The translations under genes and the position numbers were made by a program. Under the pieces are notes generated by a model. That model did not search any database. It was not told the origin of the DNA and was given only the letters and a program-made list of their open reading frames with translations. Source: an uncultured cyanobacterium (GTDB lineage: Bacteria; Cyanobacteriota; Cyanobacteriia; Cyanobacteriales; FACHB-T130). Taken from it: a stretch of DNA of 36,368 nucleotides. The stretch covers positions 1 through 36,368 of the forward strand of contig CAKZHE010000245.1 of assembly GCA_936920195.1 (NCBI GenBank), read 5' to 3'. Positions 22,965 to 31,394 of this stretch are shown one piece after another (the first letter of the stretch is position 1; every line of letters begins with the position of its first letter).

Positions 22965-25268
22965 TTAACTTTTTAATAATTTTAGCAAAGCTTGAGCAAC
23001 TTCTTGAAATACACTTGTCCAATCCTGCGGCTGAGATTGTCGAAATAAACGCATTGTCGGATACCAAGGAGTATCATTACAGTTTAACATCCACCGCCAA
23101 TCGGGACTATAACAAAGTAATGTCCAAACTGGTTTGCCTAATGCTCCTGTCAAGTGAACTACGGAAGTATCGACGCTAATGACTAAATCCAGTTGGGCAA
23201 TAATCCCAGCGGTATCGCCAAAATCTCCTAAATCAGAACTTAAATTGAAAACATGAAATTCTTGGAGTTTGGGCAAGTCTCCCGGTTTTAAAACTTTTTG
23301 CAAGCTATAAAAATCAACTTGCGAATTATTCAAAATCGGGATAAAATCATTTAATTGACAAGAACGATTATGGTCATTTTTATGGGTAGGGCTACCTGCC
23401 CAAACAATCCCAACTTTGAATTTTGAACTTTGAATTAACAGCTTTTTACCTGGGGGAACTTGTAAATAGGGAACTTGGTTCGGCACAGTGGCTAATTTTG
23501 TTCCGAGTATGTAAGGCAAACTCATCAAGGGAATATAGACATCAAATTCTGAAGTGGCAACATCTCCAGGAGGTAGTAATTTATCAATTTCTGGAATGGT
23601 GGCAAATAGGGACATTAATTCCGGAATGCAAACCAAAATTAAGCGCCGACATTTCGGTTTAACTAAGGGAATATAACGGATAAACTGAATGGCATCGCCG
23701 GAACCTTGTTCGGTATGGATGAGGATAGTTTGATTGGGAATTTTACTGCCATCCCATTTGGGTTGAGGACAAATAAAAGGGGTAAAGTGCTTAGTTTTCC
23801 ACCGCCATTCCGATTCGGCAAAGCCGGGGAGATAATCGCCTTTAGCTAATAGTGCCATGCCCAAGTTGAAATGAGCATCGGGAAAATCAAACCTGATTTT
23901 TAGAGCTTGGCGATAATAGGCGATCGCCTGTTCTAAATTATGCTGATTATGGCTAATATTGCCCAAGTTATTGTAGGCTTCGGCATAATTGGGATCGCTG
24001 GCAATTACTTGTTGTAAGAGGGCGATCGCTTCCTGCCATTGTTCCTGTTCTAATAATACCACGCCCAAGTTATACTGAGCCACATTTAGATCGGGTTTCA
24101 ATTGCAAACAGCGGCGATAACAGCGTTCTGCCTCGACTAAATTCCCTTGATGATAGGCATCGTTGCCCAAGTTGAGATGATAATCGGAGTCATTGGCTAA
24201 CTCGGTATTTTCAGTCAGCCAGACATTTTTTAAAGCTTCATCGGGTAAAATGTAGGAACTGCTTAAAAGTTTGGTATCCCAATCAATAATTTCTGGAAAT
24301 TTAATTCCTGGTAAAATGGTAACAGCAAAGATTTCCTGTACTGCCTCTTCAAATCGGAGAAAAGCTACGGTTTCTCCAGTTTCAATATTTACTACCCATA
24401 CGCCACAAGTTCGTTCTTGCAATCTTTGGGCAATGGGAATACCGCTAAAAACTGCAGTTTCGCGAATTTGGGATAAACCAATAAAAGCCAACTTGCCATA
24501 AAAATCGATGCCGCGAGTAAAACCGGGAACCATTGCCACGGTAGTCAATTTACCCGTATGTAAATCCACTTTGGCTAAACTGCCATTTCCCGATTCCAAA
24601 ACCCACAACTCTCCCAAATACCAGCGGGGCGAATGGGGCATGGATAAACCTTGATAGATGATTTCATTCGTGGTAATATCCATTAGTATGCCGCCATTGG
24701 CTTTATTTTTGCGCCAACCTGCCGCCGTGTCAGTAGTTCCCAAAGCGGTAATATAACGGGGTTGATGGTCGCGAATACCTAAGCCGTTTAGATGACAGCG
24801 ATCGCTTAAATCATAAGCAGTAATAAATGGTGGTCGCCAGCGAGGAATAAAACTATGAACGCCATCCAAAGTACACAAACAAGAAAACCGGGTATTAATA
24901 AACCATAATTCTTCCCCAGTATATGCCATTTCGTGAATATCAATATCCCCAGTAATATGAGTGCGCCGGGGCAAATAACAAGCATCATGTTTGCCGAGGG
25001 GTTCCAGTTTTTCCGCTACCGCTGGCACATTTCGCAATTCCCAAATTTGACAAGCCGTACCCAAAGCGATTTTTTCTCTGTCGGCAGCCACACCCATCGG
25101 ACGATCGAATGTCCGAAAATGAGTATTAATGGTATTACCATCGGCGCGTAAAACAATTAACTTGCCAGCTTGGTAAGTGGAAACTATCACCGAGATGCCC
25201 AACTGATTGAGAATATCGGGCAAATTAGTAGTATGGACACTGCGGAGGGGAATATCTTGGGGATTCAT
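22965..25268 (-). CDS. TIGR03032 domain - TPR - glycosyltransferase-like fusion protein
   Basis: 767 residues. Residues about 1-345 match the TIGR03032 type of conserved hypothetical domain (IVSTYQAGKLIVLR, RPMGVA, DIDIHEMAY, HLNGLGIRDHQPRYITALG, GGILMD, MPHSPRW, VPGFTRGIDFYGKLAFIGLSQIRE), a predicted beta-propeller. Residues about 360-470 are three TPR units (AYHQGNLVEAERCYRRCLQL, NLGVVLLEQEQWQEAIALLQQ, NLGNISHNQHNLEQAIAYYRQAL). The C-terminal ~290 residues resemble the TPR-linked GT9/GT41-like glycosyltransferase fold (HTEQGSGDAIQFIRY, VGIVWAGSPTHKND, DLVISVDTSVVHLTGALGKPVW). A protein or polysaccharide glycosylation role is plausible. Divergent from the DUF433 gene with 39 bp between starts. 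Confidence 0.85.
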   Translation of the reverse strand: MNPQDIPLRSVHTTNLPDILNQLGISVIVSTYQAGKLIVLRADGNTINTHFRTFDRPMGVAADREKIALGTACQIWELRNVPAVAEKLEPLGKHDACYLPRRTHITGDIDIHEMAYTGEELWFINTRFSCLCTLDGVHSFIPRWRPPFITAYDLSDRCHLNGLGIRDHQPRYITALGTTDTAAGWRKNKANGGILMDITTNEIIYQGLSMPHSPRWYLGELWVLESGNGSLAKVDLHTGKLTTVAMVPGFTRGIDFYGKLAFIGLSQIRETAVFSGIPIAQRLQERTCGVWVVNIETGETVAFLRFEEAVQEIFAVTILPGIKFPEIIDWDTKLLSSSYILPDEALKNVWLTENTELANDSDYHLNLGNDAYHQGNLVEAERCYRRCLQLKPDLNVAQYNLGVVLLEQEQWQEAIALLQQVIASDPNYAEAYNNLGNISHNQHNLEQAIAYYRQALKIRFDFPDAHFNLGMALLAKGDYLPGFAESEWRWKTKHFTPFICPQPKWDGSKIPNQTILIHTEQGSGDAIQFIRYIPLVKPKCRRLILVCIPELMSLFATIPEIDKLLPPGDVATSEFDVYIPLMSLPYILGTKLATVPNQVPYLQVPPGKKLLIQSSKFKVGIVWAGSPTHKNDHNRSCQLNDFIPILNNSQVDFYSLQKVLKPGDLPKLQEFHVFNLSSDLGDFGDTAGIIAQLDLVISVDTSVVHLTGALGKPVWTLLCYSPDWRWMLNCNDTPWYPTMRLFRQSQPQDWTSVFQEVAQALLKLLKS

Positions 25269-25307
25269 TATAATAGATACAGAATTGTCACCGGACTCAA
25301 TTTTAAA

Positions 25308-25640
25308 ATGCCACTGGTTCTGATCGCTGACCCAATTCCCCTAGTAACTAATGCTGATGGTGTGATTCGCATCAGCAATACTCGCGTTACCCTAGATACG
25401 GTAATAACGGCTTTTCTGGAAGGCGCTACCGCTGAAGAAATCAGAGAGCAATACCCATCACTTCAGCTTTCTGATATTTATTCTACGATTGGGTACTACT
25501 TGAGACATCAACTTGAAGTTGATGCCTATCTCCTCGAACGTCAACAGATTGCTAACAGGGTACGGCAAGAAGCTGAAAAGCGTTTCAATCCCGTGGGAAT
25601 ACGCGATCGCTTATTAGCAAGGCGCAACCATCAAGTATAA
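25308..25640 (+). CDS. DUF433 family protein, putative antitoxin
   Basis: 110 residues. The DUF433 core reads GVIRISNTRVTLDTVITAFLEGATAEEIREQYP followed by LSDIYSTIGYYLRH (shown here only as description: a winged-helix-like fold). The start was set at ATG 25308 (MPLVLIADP); a longer frame from 25170 runs into the divergent gene's 5' end and has no homology. The DUF5615 gene starts 6 bp downstream, the usual partner order for this toxin-antitoxin type. Confidence 0.85.
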   Translation: MPLVLIADPIPLVTNADGVIRISNTRVTLDTVITAFLEGATAEEIREQYPSLQLSDIYSTIGYYLRHQLEVDAYLLERQQIANRVRQEAEKRFNPVGIRDRLLARRNHQV

Positions 25641-25646
25641 ACTAAT

Positions 25647-26000
25647 ATGCTGAGATTCTTAGCGGATGAAAACTTTAACAATCAGATTATCCGTGGGGTT
25701 TTACGTCGGAATCCTAATGTTAACATTGTCCGGGTTCAGGATGTAGAATTAACTGGAGCAGACGATCCAACTGTATTAGCATGGGCAGCGCAGCAAGAGC
25801 GTATAGTGTTAACACATGATGTCGCCACAATGACCAACTTTGCCTATGAGCGACTGGCAGCAGGTTTGTTGATGCCAGGATTGTTTGAAATCAGTCGTCG
25901 CGTTCCGGTTAGGCAAGCAATTGAAGAAATTCTGTTGTTAGATGAGTGTAGTCTAGAAGGAGAGTGGGAAGGGCAAGTACAATTTTTGCCATTGCGTTAA
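25647..26000 (+). CDS. DUF5615 PIN-like protein, putative toxin
   Basis: 117 residues with the Mut7-C/DUF5615 PIN-like fold: FLADENFNNQIIRGVLRR (acidic Asp-Glu pair), VQDVELTGADDPTVLAWAAQ, RIVLTHDVATM (second acidic site). Such proteins are typically paired with DUF433 antitoxins and are predicted RNases. Just 17 bp before the CCA-type nucleotidyltransferase start, so the three genes may be co-transcribed. Toxicity is inferred from the pairing. Confidence 0.87.
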   Translation: MLRFLADENFNNQIIRGVLRRNPNVNIVRVQDVELTGADDPTVLAWAAQQERIVLTHDVATMTNFAYERLAAGLLMPGLFEISRRVPVRQAIEEILLLDECSLEGEWEGQVQFLPLR

Positions 26001-28973: not shown

Positions 28974-29160
28974 CAAGCCGCTTTGTTTGCTCATTCTCTG
29001 TTTCGCGAACCGCTGTGAATGCGCTAGCGCCGGGGCAGTTACAAGAACCAAGCAAAATTTGCCTTCCAACTACTTGACAACCATTAAACTTGTGTACTAC
29101 AGTGATACTACAAGGCGTGAGGGCAAGCCCATGAATGTTTAGGAAACAACAGAAATCTTT

Positions 29161-29278
29161 CAGGACTTACGCAACACCTCTATTAGTAGGGTGTGTATAG
29201 CCTATCGGCATGGCTAACGCTAAAGCGACAGCGTAACGCACCATAAACGCTATATGCGGAGCAACTGCGTAAGTCCTG
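29161..29278. mobile_element. MITE-like element C, upstream of the Y RNA genes
   Basis: 118 bp with perfect 13-bp termini CAGGACTTACGCA (29161-29173) and TGCGTAAGTCCTG (29266-29278). The interior carries GCGTAACGCACC, a half of the palindrome also seen at 21995-22021 and 35959-35983. It ends 25 bp before the first Y RNA. Confidence 0.85.
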
Positions 29279-29303
29279 TTGCTGGTAAATTCAAAAATTG
29301 TGT

Positions 29304-29431
29304 GTGGTAGGTAGCTCAATTGTAGAGTGCCAACTTTGTCTGCAAAGGCCGAACGAATTGAGGGTTATCGCTATTAACGATTCAACCCCCTTAATTCACC
29401 GGAGATGCGGGTGCAAATCCCGCCCTACTAC
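29304..29431 (+). ncRNA. Y RNA (YrlA-like), copy 1
   Basis: A tRNA-like RNA with a Ro-binding insert, about 128 nt. GTGGTAGG (29304-29311) pairs with CCTACTAC (29424-29431), 8 bp with one G-U. TA then D arm GCTC/GAGT (29314-29328). The insert has hexaloop TGCAAA (29341-29346) closed by GTC/GGC, a bulged C (29350), then TTT/GAA: the same pattern (UUG-pairs, bulged C, GGCCGA strand) that defines the Ro60 site of animal Y RNAs. A long hairpin follows (29355-29398, GAATTGAGGG...CCCCTTAATTC). The T arm is GCGGG-TGCAAAT-CCCGC (29407-29423). No anticodon arm of tRNA type, so it is not a tRNA. Ro60 is encoded 360 bp downstream. Confidence 0.82.
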
Positions 29432-29437
29432 TGAAAT

Positions 29438-29519
29438 AGGGAACAGGGAACAGGGAACAGGGAACAGGGAATAGGGAATAGGGAGGAGAAGAATGGGGAA
29501 TAGGGAATAGGGAATAGGA
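29438..29519. repeat. Heptanucleotide array (GGGAACA / GGGAATA)
   Basis: Starts just after Y RNA copy 1. Runs of GGGAACA then GGGAATA, interrupted by GGAGGAGAAGAATG. Confidence 0.95.
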
Positions 29520-29587
29520 GATTTGACCAGTCAAGTCGCTTCGCTCCAATTCAAAATTATCAATTCAAAATTAAAGACAATTTCATT

Positions 29588-29626
29588 TTGAATTTTGAAT
29601 TTTGAATTTTGAATTTTGAATTCAAA
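29588..29626. repeat. AT-rich heptamer array (TTTTGAA)
   Basis: About five TTTTGAA units directly upstream of Y RNA copy 2, with complementary TTCAAAATT segments at about 29551-29572. The promoter of copy 2 must lie in or near it; no good -10/-35 pair could be fixed. Confidence 0.85.
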
Positions 29627-29630
29627 TTAT

Positions 29631-29756
29631 GTGGCGGGTAGCTCAGATGGTAGAGCGCCAAAAACATCCTTGTTCATACCTTGCCTGCAAAGGCCGAAGA
29701 ATTAGGGTTATCGACTCATAATCGGGTAGTCGCAGGTTCGAGTCCTGCCCCGCCAC
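29631..29756 (+). ncRNA. Y RNA (YrlA-like), copy 2, with tRNA-Met-like features
   Basis: About 126 nt. GTGGCGGG (29631-29638) pairs perfectly with CCCGCCAC (29749-29756). D arm GCTC-AGATGGTA-GAGC (29641-29656) keeps G18G19; T arm GCAGG-TTCGAGT-CCTGC (29732-29748) keeps the canonical TTC-R-A. Between them, hexaloop TGCAAA (29686-29691) is closed by GCC/GGC, bulged C (29695), then TT/GA pairs: the Ro-binding helix shared with copy 1 and with animal Y RNAs, circularly permuted. 3' of it lies CTCATAA (29714-29720) within a short stem, identical to an elongator tRNA-Met anticodon loop (CAU). A T6 run (29762-29767) follows the acceptor-like stem. No encoded CCA. A tRNA finder might miscall it as intron-containing tRNA-Met. 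Confidence 0.87.
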
Positions 29757-29792
29757 CTGTCTTTTTTGCCCCAATGGGGACGGGAGAACCAA

Positions 29793-31394
29793 ATGAGTTA
29801 TAAGTTCTTCACTCAACCACAAAACAGCGTACCACAAACCCAACCAATTCCGGGAAGAGAATCAGAAATGATTCCAGGACGTTCTGGCGGTTGGATGTTT
29901 AATGCTGGAATTTGGACAATGCTGCGGCGCTGTTTGTTGATTGGGACTGCCCAAAATACTTATTATGCTGGCAAAAAAGAATTAACTGATGATTTTGTGG
30001 AAGTGGTGCGACAAGCGATCGCCCAAAATCCCGCAAAAGTTGCCGAAGAAATCCTTTATGCTAGCGATGGACGAGCGATCAACAACAGTACCCCCATTTT
30101 TGCCCTAGTCTTGCTATCGATGGGGGAAACACCAGAGGCGAAAAAAGCTTTTCAAGCCATCTTTTCCGATGTAGTTCGGACTGGCAGTCACTTCTACGAA
30201 TGGCTGAGTTATACCAAATCCCTGCGCGGATTGGGAATGATGGTACGGGAAGCTGGTAAAAAGTGGCTTTCGCGGGAAGATGTCAAGGGTTTAGCCTACC
30301 AGTTGTTGAAGTACCAACAACGCCACGGCTTCTCCCACCGGGATGCTTTGCGCCTTTTCCACGTTAAACCAATCACCGAGGAACATCGCCAACTCTTTGA
30401 ATGGGCGGTAAAAGGGTGGGATACTCTGCCAGAATCCATTCCTTCCCCTGCCCTAGCGCAGATTTGGTGGTATGAGTGGTTAAAGCGCCATCCAGAGCAT
30501 ACCCATGAAGCGATCGCCCAAGGACATCTAACCCACGAAATGGCGGCTCCCGTCGGTAAAATGGACGTAGCGGCATGGCAGTTGCTGTTTAACGAAATGC
30601 CCATTGGCGCAATGTTGCGAAATCTAGGTTCTTTAACCGAAATTGGCGTATTGCGAGCCGATGAACCTGCCAATTTAGACAGAGTTGCAGCCATTCTCAA
30701 CGATGCCGAACATTTGCGAAAGGGGCGCATCCATCCTATTGATGCCCTGAAAGCGCTGAAAACCTACCAATCTGGAGGCAAATTAGGGCGCAGTCACAAA
30801 ACTTGGCATCCAGTAACTAGGATTGTGGATATTCTGGAAAAAACCGTAGAAATGTCCTTTGATGTGACAGAACCAACCGGGAAAGTTTTCCTCCATGCCG
30901 TGGATATTTCCGGTTCAATGGGTAGCTACATTGCCGATATTGGACTTACCTGCTGCGAAGTGGCAACGACAATGGCGCTAGTCACAGCCAAAGCCGAGAG
31001 AAACTATGCTATTCGCGGTTTCTCTACCGAGTTCCGCAACTTGGGTATCAACCGTCAGGATAGTTTTAGTTCGGCAATGAAAAAGGCGAGCAATCAAAAC
31101 TTTGGTGGTACTGATGCGGCGGTTGCCTACGACTGGATGATTCAGAACCGATTCAAAGCTGATGTAGTTTGTTTTTGGACTGATTCTGAATCCTGGGCTG
31201 GTCATAAACATCCCAGCACCGCTTTAGCTACCTACCGGAAAAAGGTAAATCGGAATATCAAGGCAGTTTATATCACTTTAGCTCCTTACCGGATTACCTT
31301 GGTAGACCCCAAAGACCCCCTCTCCTGGGATTTGGGCGGTTTTGATCCTGGAATGCCGCGTCTGATTCAGATGCTCGCTACAGGCGATTTGTAA
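29793..31394 (+). CDS. rsr: Ro60 orthologue (Ro sixty-related protein, TROVE + vWA)
   Basis: 533 residues, close to human Ro60 (538). The N-terminal TROVE domain (about 1-350, helical HEAT-like ring that binds misfolded RNA ends in its cavity and Y RNA on its outer face) includes YYAGKKELTDDFVEVVRQAI, SLRGLGMMVREAGKKW, YQQRHGFSHRDALRLFH and LLFNEMPIGAMLRNLGSLTEIG. The vWA domain carries an intact MIDAS: Asp371-Ser373-Ser375 (DISGSMGS), Thr440 (GGTDAA) and Asp464 (WTDSESW). In bacteria such as Deinococcus, Rsr with Y RNA tethers PNPase and assists rRNA maturation and stress RNA turnover. The start at 29793 has GGAG six bases upstream; a TTG start at 29766 is possible but less likely. It begins 36 bp after Y RNA copy 2. 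Confidence 0.97.
   Translation: MSYKFFTQPQNSVPQTQPIPGRESEMIPGRSGGWMFNAGIWTMLRRCLLIGTAQNTYYAGKKELTDDFVEVVRQAIAQNPAKVAEEILYASDGRAINNSTPIFALVLLSMGETPEAKKAFQAIFSDVVRTGSHFYEWLSYTKSLRGLGMMVREAGKKWLSREDVKGLAYQLLKYQQRHGFSHRDALRLFHVKPITEEHRQLFEWAVKGWDTLPESIPSPALAQIWWYEWLKRHPEHTHEAIAQGHLTHEMAAPVGKMDVAAWQLLFNEMPIGAMLRNLGSLTEIGVLRADEPANLDRVAAILNDAEHLRKGRIHPIDALKALKTYQSGGKLGRSHKTWHPVTRIVDILEKTVEMSFDVTEPTGKVFLHAVDISGSMGSYIADIGLTCCEVATTMALVTAKAERNYAIRGFSTEFRNLGINRQDSFSSAMKKASNQNFGGTDAAVAYDWMIQNRFKADVVCFWTDSESWAGHKHPSTALATYRKKVNRNIKAVYITLAPYRITLVDPKDPLSWDLGGFDPGMPRLIQMLATGDL

Follow-up and report, generated by a model that had tools for sequence, protein, structure and literature searches.

Candidate circularly permuted, tRNA-shaped Y RNAs upstream of a cyanobacterial Ro60 gene, and a copy of their Ro tip in the leader of that gene

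A Ro60 gene preceded by two tRNA-shaped RNA elements

In the genome of an uncultured cyanobacterium (GTDB lineage Cyanobacteriota; Cyanobacteriales; FACHB-T130), contig CAKZHE010000245.1 of assembly GCA_936920195.1 (positions 1 to 36,368 of the forward strand; this whole stretch of 36,368 nucleotides is called the window) carries rsr, the gene for an orthologue of the Ro60 protein, downstream of two RNA elements that combine a tRNA-like body with a Ro-site hairpin and that we interpret as Y RNAs. A previous reading made from the letters alone (the sequence-only reading) had placed two tRNA-mimic RNAs with a Ro site just upstream of the Ro60 gene, and that is where they lie. The features of the locus are as follows.

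29304-29431, + strand: element 1, Y-tRNA type B (the span counts G-1 and C73), in the order 8-bp acceptor, D arm, Ro-tip hairpin (29336-29352), swapped lower helix, apical hairpin, T arm
29355-29364 with 29386-29397, + strand: swapped lower helix of element 1
29631-29756, + strand: element 2, Y-tRNA type A (the span counts G-1 and C73), in the order 8-bp acceptor, D arm, tRNA positions 26-28, Ro hairpin with GCAA loop, distal anticodon stem-loop, variable loop, T arm
29666-29711, + strand: Ro hairpin of element 2, with the 3' strand ATCCTTGTTC first, then the tip, then the 5' strand GAATTAGGGTTAT
29681-29697, + strand: tip of element 2, closed by GCAA, with the invariant bulged C, U.G and U-A
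29712-29724, + strand: distal anticodon stem-loop of element 2, CGA-CTCATAA-TCG, with triplet CAT and U33
29762-29786, + strand: rsr leader hairpin TTTTTT-GCCCC-AAT-GGGGAC-GGGAG (TTTTTTGCCCCAATGGGGACGGGAG), ending on the Shine-Dalgarno sequence; a variant copy of the Ro tip and candidate autoregulatory site
29793-31394, + strand: rsr, Ro60 orthologue of 533 aa, with TROVE and vWA_Ro60 domains and DISGSMG

A domain search showed full-length TROVE and vWA_Ro60 in Rsr, and its DISGSMG, read by eye, is of the metal ion-dependent adhesion site (MIDAS) type, which bears out the intact TROVE-vWA gene with MIDAS that had been proposed. A PDB search with Rsr gave the Rsr of D. radiodurans as best match (2nvo, E 2.9e-70), and Ro60 (1yvp, E 1.1e-66) was also among the nearest solved structures. 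TROVE, vWA, MIDAS and homology to solved Rsr and Ro60 are thus all found in this one protein. Its segment KYQQRHGFSHRDALRLFHVKP can be aligned to a 21-letter segment of 1yvp, a region that we take to contact Y RNA.

Both elements carry the tip TTGYCT-GCAA-AGGC-C-GA (29336-29352 in element 1, 29681-29697 in element 2). With the Rfam tRNA model (RF00005), element 1 gave an end-to-end match of 36.5 bits (cut-off 29) that spans its insert, and element 2 a partial match (29692-29748) of 22.2 bits, under the cut-off; ARAGORN called no tRNA in the window, at neither element, and neither is an uninterrupted cloverleaf recognised as a tRNA gene. On the opposite strand, the Plastid-ycf2 model gave 33.2 bits (cut-off 65.7, E 4e-05), which was taken as a tRNA-like resemblance. 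In folding, element 1 reached a z score of -3.25, with 0 of 200 shuffles equally good. By eye, an inverted repeat, tcaggacttacgca...tgcgtaagtcctg, and short repeats resembling GGGAACAGGGAATA stand on either side of element 1 (29160-29280 and 29437-29515).

Relatives of element 2 and the type A structure

A protein scan of genomes yielded 157 rsr loci, of which the best 80 (76-82% identity) were kept. A strict finder, which demanded a D stem and a T arm together with an acceptor paired at all 7 positions, returned 197 rows from them; two lay inside rsr and were dropped, leaving 195 elements in 77 of the 80 cyanobacterial loci, at 1-9 per locus. Together with the two of the window these make the set of 197 elements used below. 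In addition, a covariance model, R1, was built on 32 type A elements; at E 1e-4 it gave 319 matches in the 80 loci, some of them its training rows, and scored element 2, itself part of the model, at 130.2 bits. Among 300 of the 319 rows, a single match, of 71 nt in L074, was on the minus strand, and at least 37 loci had a match at or shortly past the rsr stop. By strict pattern, an element follows the rsr stop in 17 of the 80 loci (e.g., L003 4685 and L006 4685); by eye such an element has acceptor, Ro hairpin, short hairpin and T arm, without a D arm. Plasmid pAQ7 of PCC 7002 (L173 2042-2443) carries three elements, by eye two of type A and one of type B, the latter nearest rsr.

The type A order is acceptor, U8 A9, D arm, positions 26-28, Ro hairpin, positions 29-31, 7-nt loop, positions 39-43, variable loop and T arm, so that in most elements the Ro hairpin is inserted between tRNA positions 28 and 29. 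In the 32 hand-picked type A sequences, 96.5% of 1182 cells are paired, as against 39.2-56.1% in slid controls; 25 of the 37 pairs vary on both sides, and 154 double-change cells were observed where shuffles gave 36.4 +- 6.5. Neither Ro-hairpin helix was used for selection; they are paired in 95.0% and 95.8% of cells, and among their 16 pairs, 8 vary on both sides and 4 never vary. The Ro site itself (bulged C, U.G, U-A and UUAUC strand; columns 62-63 and 77-79, UUAUCG) is invariant in all 32 rows, so that by sequence the conserved Ro site expected of a Y RNA in the broad sense is present. The compensatory changes among relatives by which the sequence-only reading could be checked were therefore found, here and in 21 type B elements. 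RNAalifold alone predicted 27 pairs and left out the split anticodon stem.

That stem is in tRNA register without having been selected for: despite the split by the insert, 89 of the 197 elements form all five pairs (3/3 + 2/2), and a further 29 form 2/3 + 2/2. With small register shifts allowed, 125 elements constitute the main class, in which position 33 is U in 122 and the insert measures 47-55 nt in 123. The usual tip has the form UU-GCCU-GNRA-AGGC-C-GA; by script, a 4-bp stem with a GNRA loop was found in 139 of the 197, other loops in 15 and none in 43. Two deviants were read by eye: in L002 2507 the hairpin sits inside the anticodon loop of a Leu-like body, and in L078 2675 it lies behind an anticodon-like hairpin.

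Element 1 and the type B structure

Element 1 shares the type A tip, and its lower helix strand GAATTGAGGG pairs with CCCCCTTAATTC downstream, not upstream, so that strand connectivity differs between the two copies in the window, type B in element 1 and type A in element 2. In 21 type B sequences, 90.4% of cells are paired (shuffles 85.5, slid controls 35-51%), 12 of 37 pairs vary on both sides, and the swapped helix is paired in 84.6%; at the Ro site, U-A is present in 16 of 21 rows and U.G in 19. Element 1 was also considered as a plain GGCCGAA/CCGG stem, and this was dropped after alignment because the partner of the lower helix lies downstream and the tip pairs locally round its GNRA loop. 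An unconstrained fold of element 1 does draw a CCG/CGG stem, and the local-tip structure is thus chosen on comparative grounds.

Duplex energy assigns 167 of the 197 elements to type A and 24 to type B and leaves 6 undecided. Among 78 loci, the window included, 21 have both types and 57 only type A; none has only type B.

Ends, topology and the comparison with YrlA

The sequence-only reading had assigned the RNAs to the YrlA class and named the Rfam YrlA and Y RNA models as a check. Neither model matched: RF02553 (YrlA) gave no match locally at E up to 10, nor in the window's own genome at E 0.001, and RF00019 (animal Y RNA) none locally at E up to 10. As RF02553 also misses 16 comparator loci at its gathering score, its failure to match is a weak test. 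Class membership is not supported by topology either. In PMC8394870, YrlA is described as having a large stem in which its 5' and 3' ends pair, plus a tRNA-like domain; the cyanobacterial elements have the adjacent Ro60 gene and the tRNA-like D, T and acceptor arms, and their ends form the tRNA acceptor stem rather than the Ro stem, which is an internal hairpin.

To judge the ends without presupposing them, an acceptor-blind finder was run on 85 loci, and it returned 151 elements in 73 loci, one of the window's two among them. The results showed that the element's own acceptor pairs 7/7 in 140 of the 151. The other way to draw such arrays is as classical YrlA RNAs in tandem, each RNA running from one Ro 5' strand through the T arm, the spacer and the next D arm to the next Ro 3' strand. 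Actinobacterial and phage loci appear to be so built (judged on folds of one unit each, L177 and L172), and neighbouring cyanobacterial acceptors are alike, with 45 of 78 neighbour pairs matching 6/7 across and 15 matching 7/7. However, in the same 78 comparisons the mean of the elements' own acceptors is better in 61, worse in 4 and tied in 13; a short loop joins the two Ro strands (GNRA in 139/197) as against gaps of 16-888 nt, median 68, between neighbours; and L074 has a single element, which leaves the tandem arrangement highly unlikely. In L071 the three acceptors differ from one another; each is self-complementary, with ACCA behind it. In the set of 197, positions -1:73 are G:C in 158, giving an 8-bp acceptor, and the 3' tails read CACCA in 58 and CCTTT in 42. 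The cyanobacterial elements are best read as a circular permutation of YrlA: a short loop, mostly of GNRA type, caps the Ro stem that lies open in YrlA, and the acceptor that YrlA keeps closed is open. No description of this permutation stood in the titles and abstract openings of the literature matches listed, a comparison outside which the primary YrlA papers lie.

Co-occurrence with TROVE genes and relation to tRNA

In a sample of 386 genomes of the phylum, 40 have a TROVE gene. At E 1e-4, R1 hit all 386 because tRNA-sized matches score up to 55.5 bits; stricter filters were used, and a line of 57 bits was set after the scores had been seen. Hits of at least 57 bits occur in 31 genomes, every one among the 40 with TROVE, and in none of the 346 others, a co-occurrence of the RNAs with TROVE genomes. 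The TROVE genomes without such a hit are G030 (an 83-aa frame), G078 (53.5 bits, adjoining rsr), G127, G018, G021, G032, G038, G041 and G044. In other Ro60 lineages of the phylum (L160, L162, L164, L165), Ro genes lie a few kb from arrays of tRNA hits, several of them 85-98 nt long, where other Y-tRNA designs may hide.

The variable array size (1-9 in the strict scan) and the short repeats between the two window elements would also suit decaying tRNA copies or a functionless mobile tRNA-like repeat. Such an origin is made extremely improbable by the compensatory changes in both Ro-hairpin helices, by the insert length of 47-55 nt in 123 of 125 elements and by the complete lack of R1 hits at or above 57 bits in the 346 genomes without TROVE.

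A different possibility is that the elements are tRNA genes with a removable intron, from which excision of the Ro hairpin leaves a normal tRNA. Read without the insert, 89/197 elements do show all five anticodon-stem pairs and a 7-nt loop; the window's genome encodes RtcB at two sites, both on contigs other than that of rsr; the body of element 2 is nearest to the host tRNA-Met(cat); and tRNA-like bodies with inserts of another kind occur in G109, G145 and G187, all three TROVE-negative. Yet ARAGORN, with 150 of 376 candidates scored, found ordinary tRNAs that cover 19 amino acids and include five with CAT; for 117 of the 125 main-class elements, with the window's genome serving as host for all, the best-matching host tRNA has a different anticodon; and the Ro hairpin co-occurs with TROVE. 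We accordingly give an intron very little chance. Among the same 150 of 376 scored candidates, ARAGORN did not see a tRNA for Ile(GAT) in the window's own genome. Capture of the elements from several cognate tRNAs was likewise rejected, the best host tRNA sharing the triplet in only 8 of 125.

A Ro-tip copy in the leader of rsr

Leaders were compared in a set of 83 (the 80 loci, the window and two Picosynechococcus) using the pattern TT-4bp-loop-4bp-N-G-A/G in the stretch from the last element to the start codon. A copy of the tip beside the Shine-Dalgarno sequence was found in 74 of the 83 leaders, which are related to one another and hence not 74 independent cases, compared with 136 of 4150 shuffles (3.3%); the shuffles were nearly dinucleotide-preserving, with plain shuffling as fallback. 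The leaders of PCC 7002 and PCC 8807 are among the nine that the pattern misses. Under a strict GNRA form, the tip occurs in the 80 loci 64 times in leaders, 138 times in listed elements, 40 times elsewhere upstream (many inside R1 hits by position) and once downstream; it occurs nowhere within 1600 bases from the rsr start, nor on the reverse strand over 583,728 bases of the 80 loci. In the 31 genomes with R1 hits of at least 57 bits, the tip pattern has 84 matches in 27 genomes, 78 of them at the rsr locus. A wider set of mRNAs with Ro tips was considered and discarded: the six off-locus matches, at most one per genome, are few and similar in number to the four of the reversed pattern, so that no regulon is seen.

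Since the leader carries a copy of the Ro tip, Ro60 may regulate itself, a suggestion drawn from sequence. There is a real possibility, only somewhat less than even, that the hairpin is instead a mere ribosome-site or terminator-like stem without Ro60 binding, in which case the remainder of the explanation stands. The final two bases are GG in 69 of 80 leaders, not the GA of the Y tip (endings CGG/TGG 69, CGA 4, TGA 3, CGT 3, unplaced 1), as a mere stem would allow. On the side of a Ro site, the UU-4bp-4nt-4bp-Y-G form is the same as that of the Y tip, the distance from the motif end to the start codon is 11 nt in 60 of the 79 leaders with a placed end, and the tip is rare elsewhere. In the leaders of the Ro genes of Nonomuraea (L177 ~2405-2465) and phage Magritte (L179 ~2410-2465), an apparent Ro-site strand pair stands before the ribosome site by eye; in phages Specks and Cashline such a pair is not clear.

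A model for the locus and the points against it

On the observed sequence, covariation-based structure, topology, co-occurrence and leader hairpin, the locus probably encodes a Ro60 ribonucleoprotein (RNP) with two permuted tRNA-shaped Y RNAs and a leader tip that may set the level of Ro60. The sequence-only reading did not include the anticodon arm in element 2, the permutation of topology, the difference in connectivity between the two copies or the leader hairpin.

Several points weigh against this model. The fold of element 2 is unconvincing by itself (z -1.61, 9 of 200 shuffles equally good), and the case for the elements therefore rests on covariation and co-occurrence with rsr. For the covariation, the type A rows were picked by hand, and helices 1, 2 and 7 of the counted structure (acceptor, D and T) are finder criteria and helices 3 and 6 (anticodon) main-class criteria, so that their pairing is partly by choice; the loci and leaders are, moreover, related to one another rather than independent. 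In type B, the apical hairpin is weak (54% paired), and two of the six elements undecided between A and B are rows of the type B alignment (L070 2322 and L072 2186). R1 matches nothing in L060 at E 1, and in L049 its only two matches score weakly, at 19.1 and 23.6 bits. TROVE-negative G109, G145 and G187 have 164-nt hits of 55.3, 55.0 and 53.5 bits; two of these (among L181, L182 and L183), read by eye, have a tRNA-like body and a long anticodon-region insert with the repeat CTTTCCGCAG-ATGCA-AG. The Ro tip pattern is absent from the hit's strand in all three, and ARAGORN calls none of them; they are something else, an unrelated interrupted tRNA or tRNA mimic, and an interrupted tRNA body alone is thus not diagnostic of a Y RNA. 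Finally, the window's own leader is a variant and one of the nine missed by the pattern, and as leader copies mostly end in CGG/TGG where the Y tip has CGA, Ro60 may bind them more weakly or not at all.

Transcription, end processing, Ro60 binding, autoregulation and RNA surveillance under translation stress are predictions of the model from sequence. The two RNAs would be matured like tRNAs at both ends and bound by Ro60 via the tip of the inserted hairpin, and the free tRNA-like elbow would recruit tRNA-handling enzymes or PNPase; a PNPase link has been reported for the Y RNA of D. radiodurans (PMC8394870, PMC7790460). Excess Ro60 would block its own ribosome site via the leader tip, so that its level tracks that of the Y RNAs, and the RNP would serve in RNA surveillance during translation stress. 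Two published transcriptome results are relevant: in Chlorogloeopsis PCC 9212 a TROVE transcript 'increased dramatically' after erythromycin, 'for unknown reasons' (PMC6424891), and in far-red-light coculture TROVE rose by 4.5 log2 and RtcB by 3.5 log2 (PMC11423583). These published TROVE genes may be of the window's rsr family, which is present in Chlorogloeopsis PCC 6912 (L004).

More tentatively, and as less likely than not, we envisage a family of permuted Y RNAs with at least two connectivities, matured like tRNAs and perhaps barred from translation by their 8+5 bp arm, in which competition by the leader decoy would set Ro60 and consumption of Y RNA in translation stress would reset its synthesis. 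An 8+5 bp arm is selenocysteine-tRNA-like. If the model holds, one RNA-binding module has been wired in three strand orders (YrlA, type A and type B), and a non-coding RNA has undergone a natural circular permutation by which a tRNA mimic regains the topology of a tRNA. The Ro site could then be mapped over natural variants numbering in the hundreds (319 model hits, 80 loci), PCC 7002, whose plasmid pAQ7 bears the system, would be a tractable host, and the way in which cells match Ro60 to its RNAs could be tested directly.

Other observations in the window and the sampled genomes

At 25170-26000 the window has two adjoining small genes, which we take to be of DUF433/DUF5615 type by their look. 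Region G000:C154:11400-19600 (L113) contains 32 tRNA genes called by ARAGORN, many duplicating dispersed ones and one called stop (tta). A peptide-pattern scan found no viral contigs carrying this Ro60.

Comparison with known systems

With tRNA (RF00005), the elements have in common the acceptor, D and T arms, U8, U33, the 7-nt anticodon loop and sometimes an encoded CCA; they differ in the mostly 8-bp acceptor with G-1:C73 and the 47-55 nt insert between positions 28 and 29. Arrays in actinobacteria and actinophages (Nonomuraea L177; phages Specks L172, Cashline L170 and Magritte L179) likewise have tRNA-like Y RNAs upstream of a Ro gene, the Ro proteins being ~30-34% identical to the window's Ro60; the units of L177 and L172, one folded from each, show the classical order, with a long terminal Ro stem of ~10 bp and a closed acceptor-like hairpin. 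In Magritte, a feature annotated as tRNA-Arg(tct) at 1946-2022 overlaps a Y-RNA-like match at 1876-2016 and is possibly misannotated. Animal Y RNAs (RF00019), which are not known to have a tRNA body, have at their Ro site a bulged C, then G.U and A-U, with a GUUAUC-like strand; the Ro site of the cyanobacterial elements is alike.

The rsr-yrlBA-rtcBA RNA repair operon of Salmonella, according to PMC7790460, also joins Ro60 to tRNA-like Y RNAs and is stress-induced; it differs from the window, where no rtcB was seen by eye among the ORFs flanking rsr and RtcB is encoded on other contigs. Closest in content is Salmonella YrlA (RF02553), which, as described in PMC8394870, adjoins rsr and has D, T and acceptor-like arms and a Ro stem; the cyanobacterial RNAs are distinguished from it by their acceptor ends, their internal closed Ro hairpin and, in the main class, an anticodon arm.

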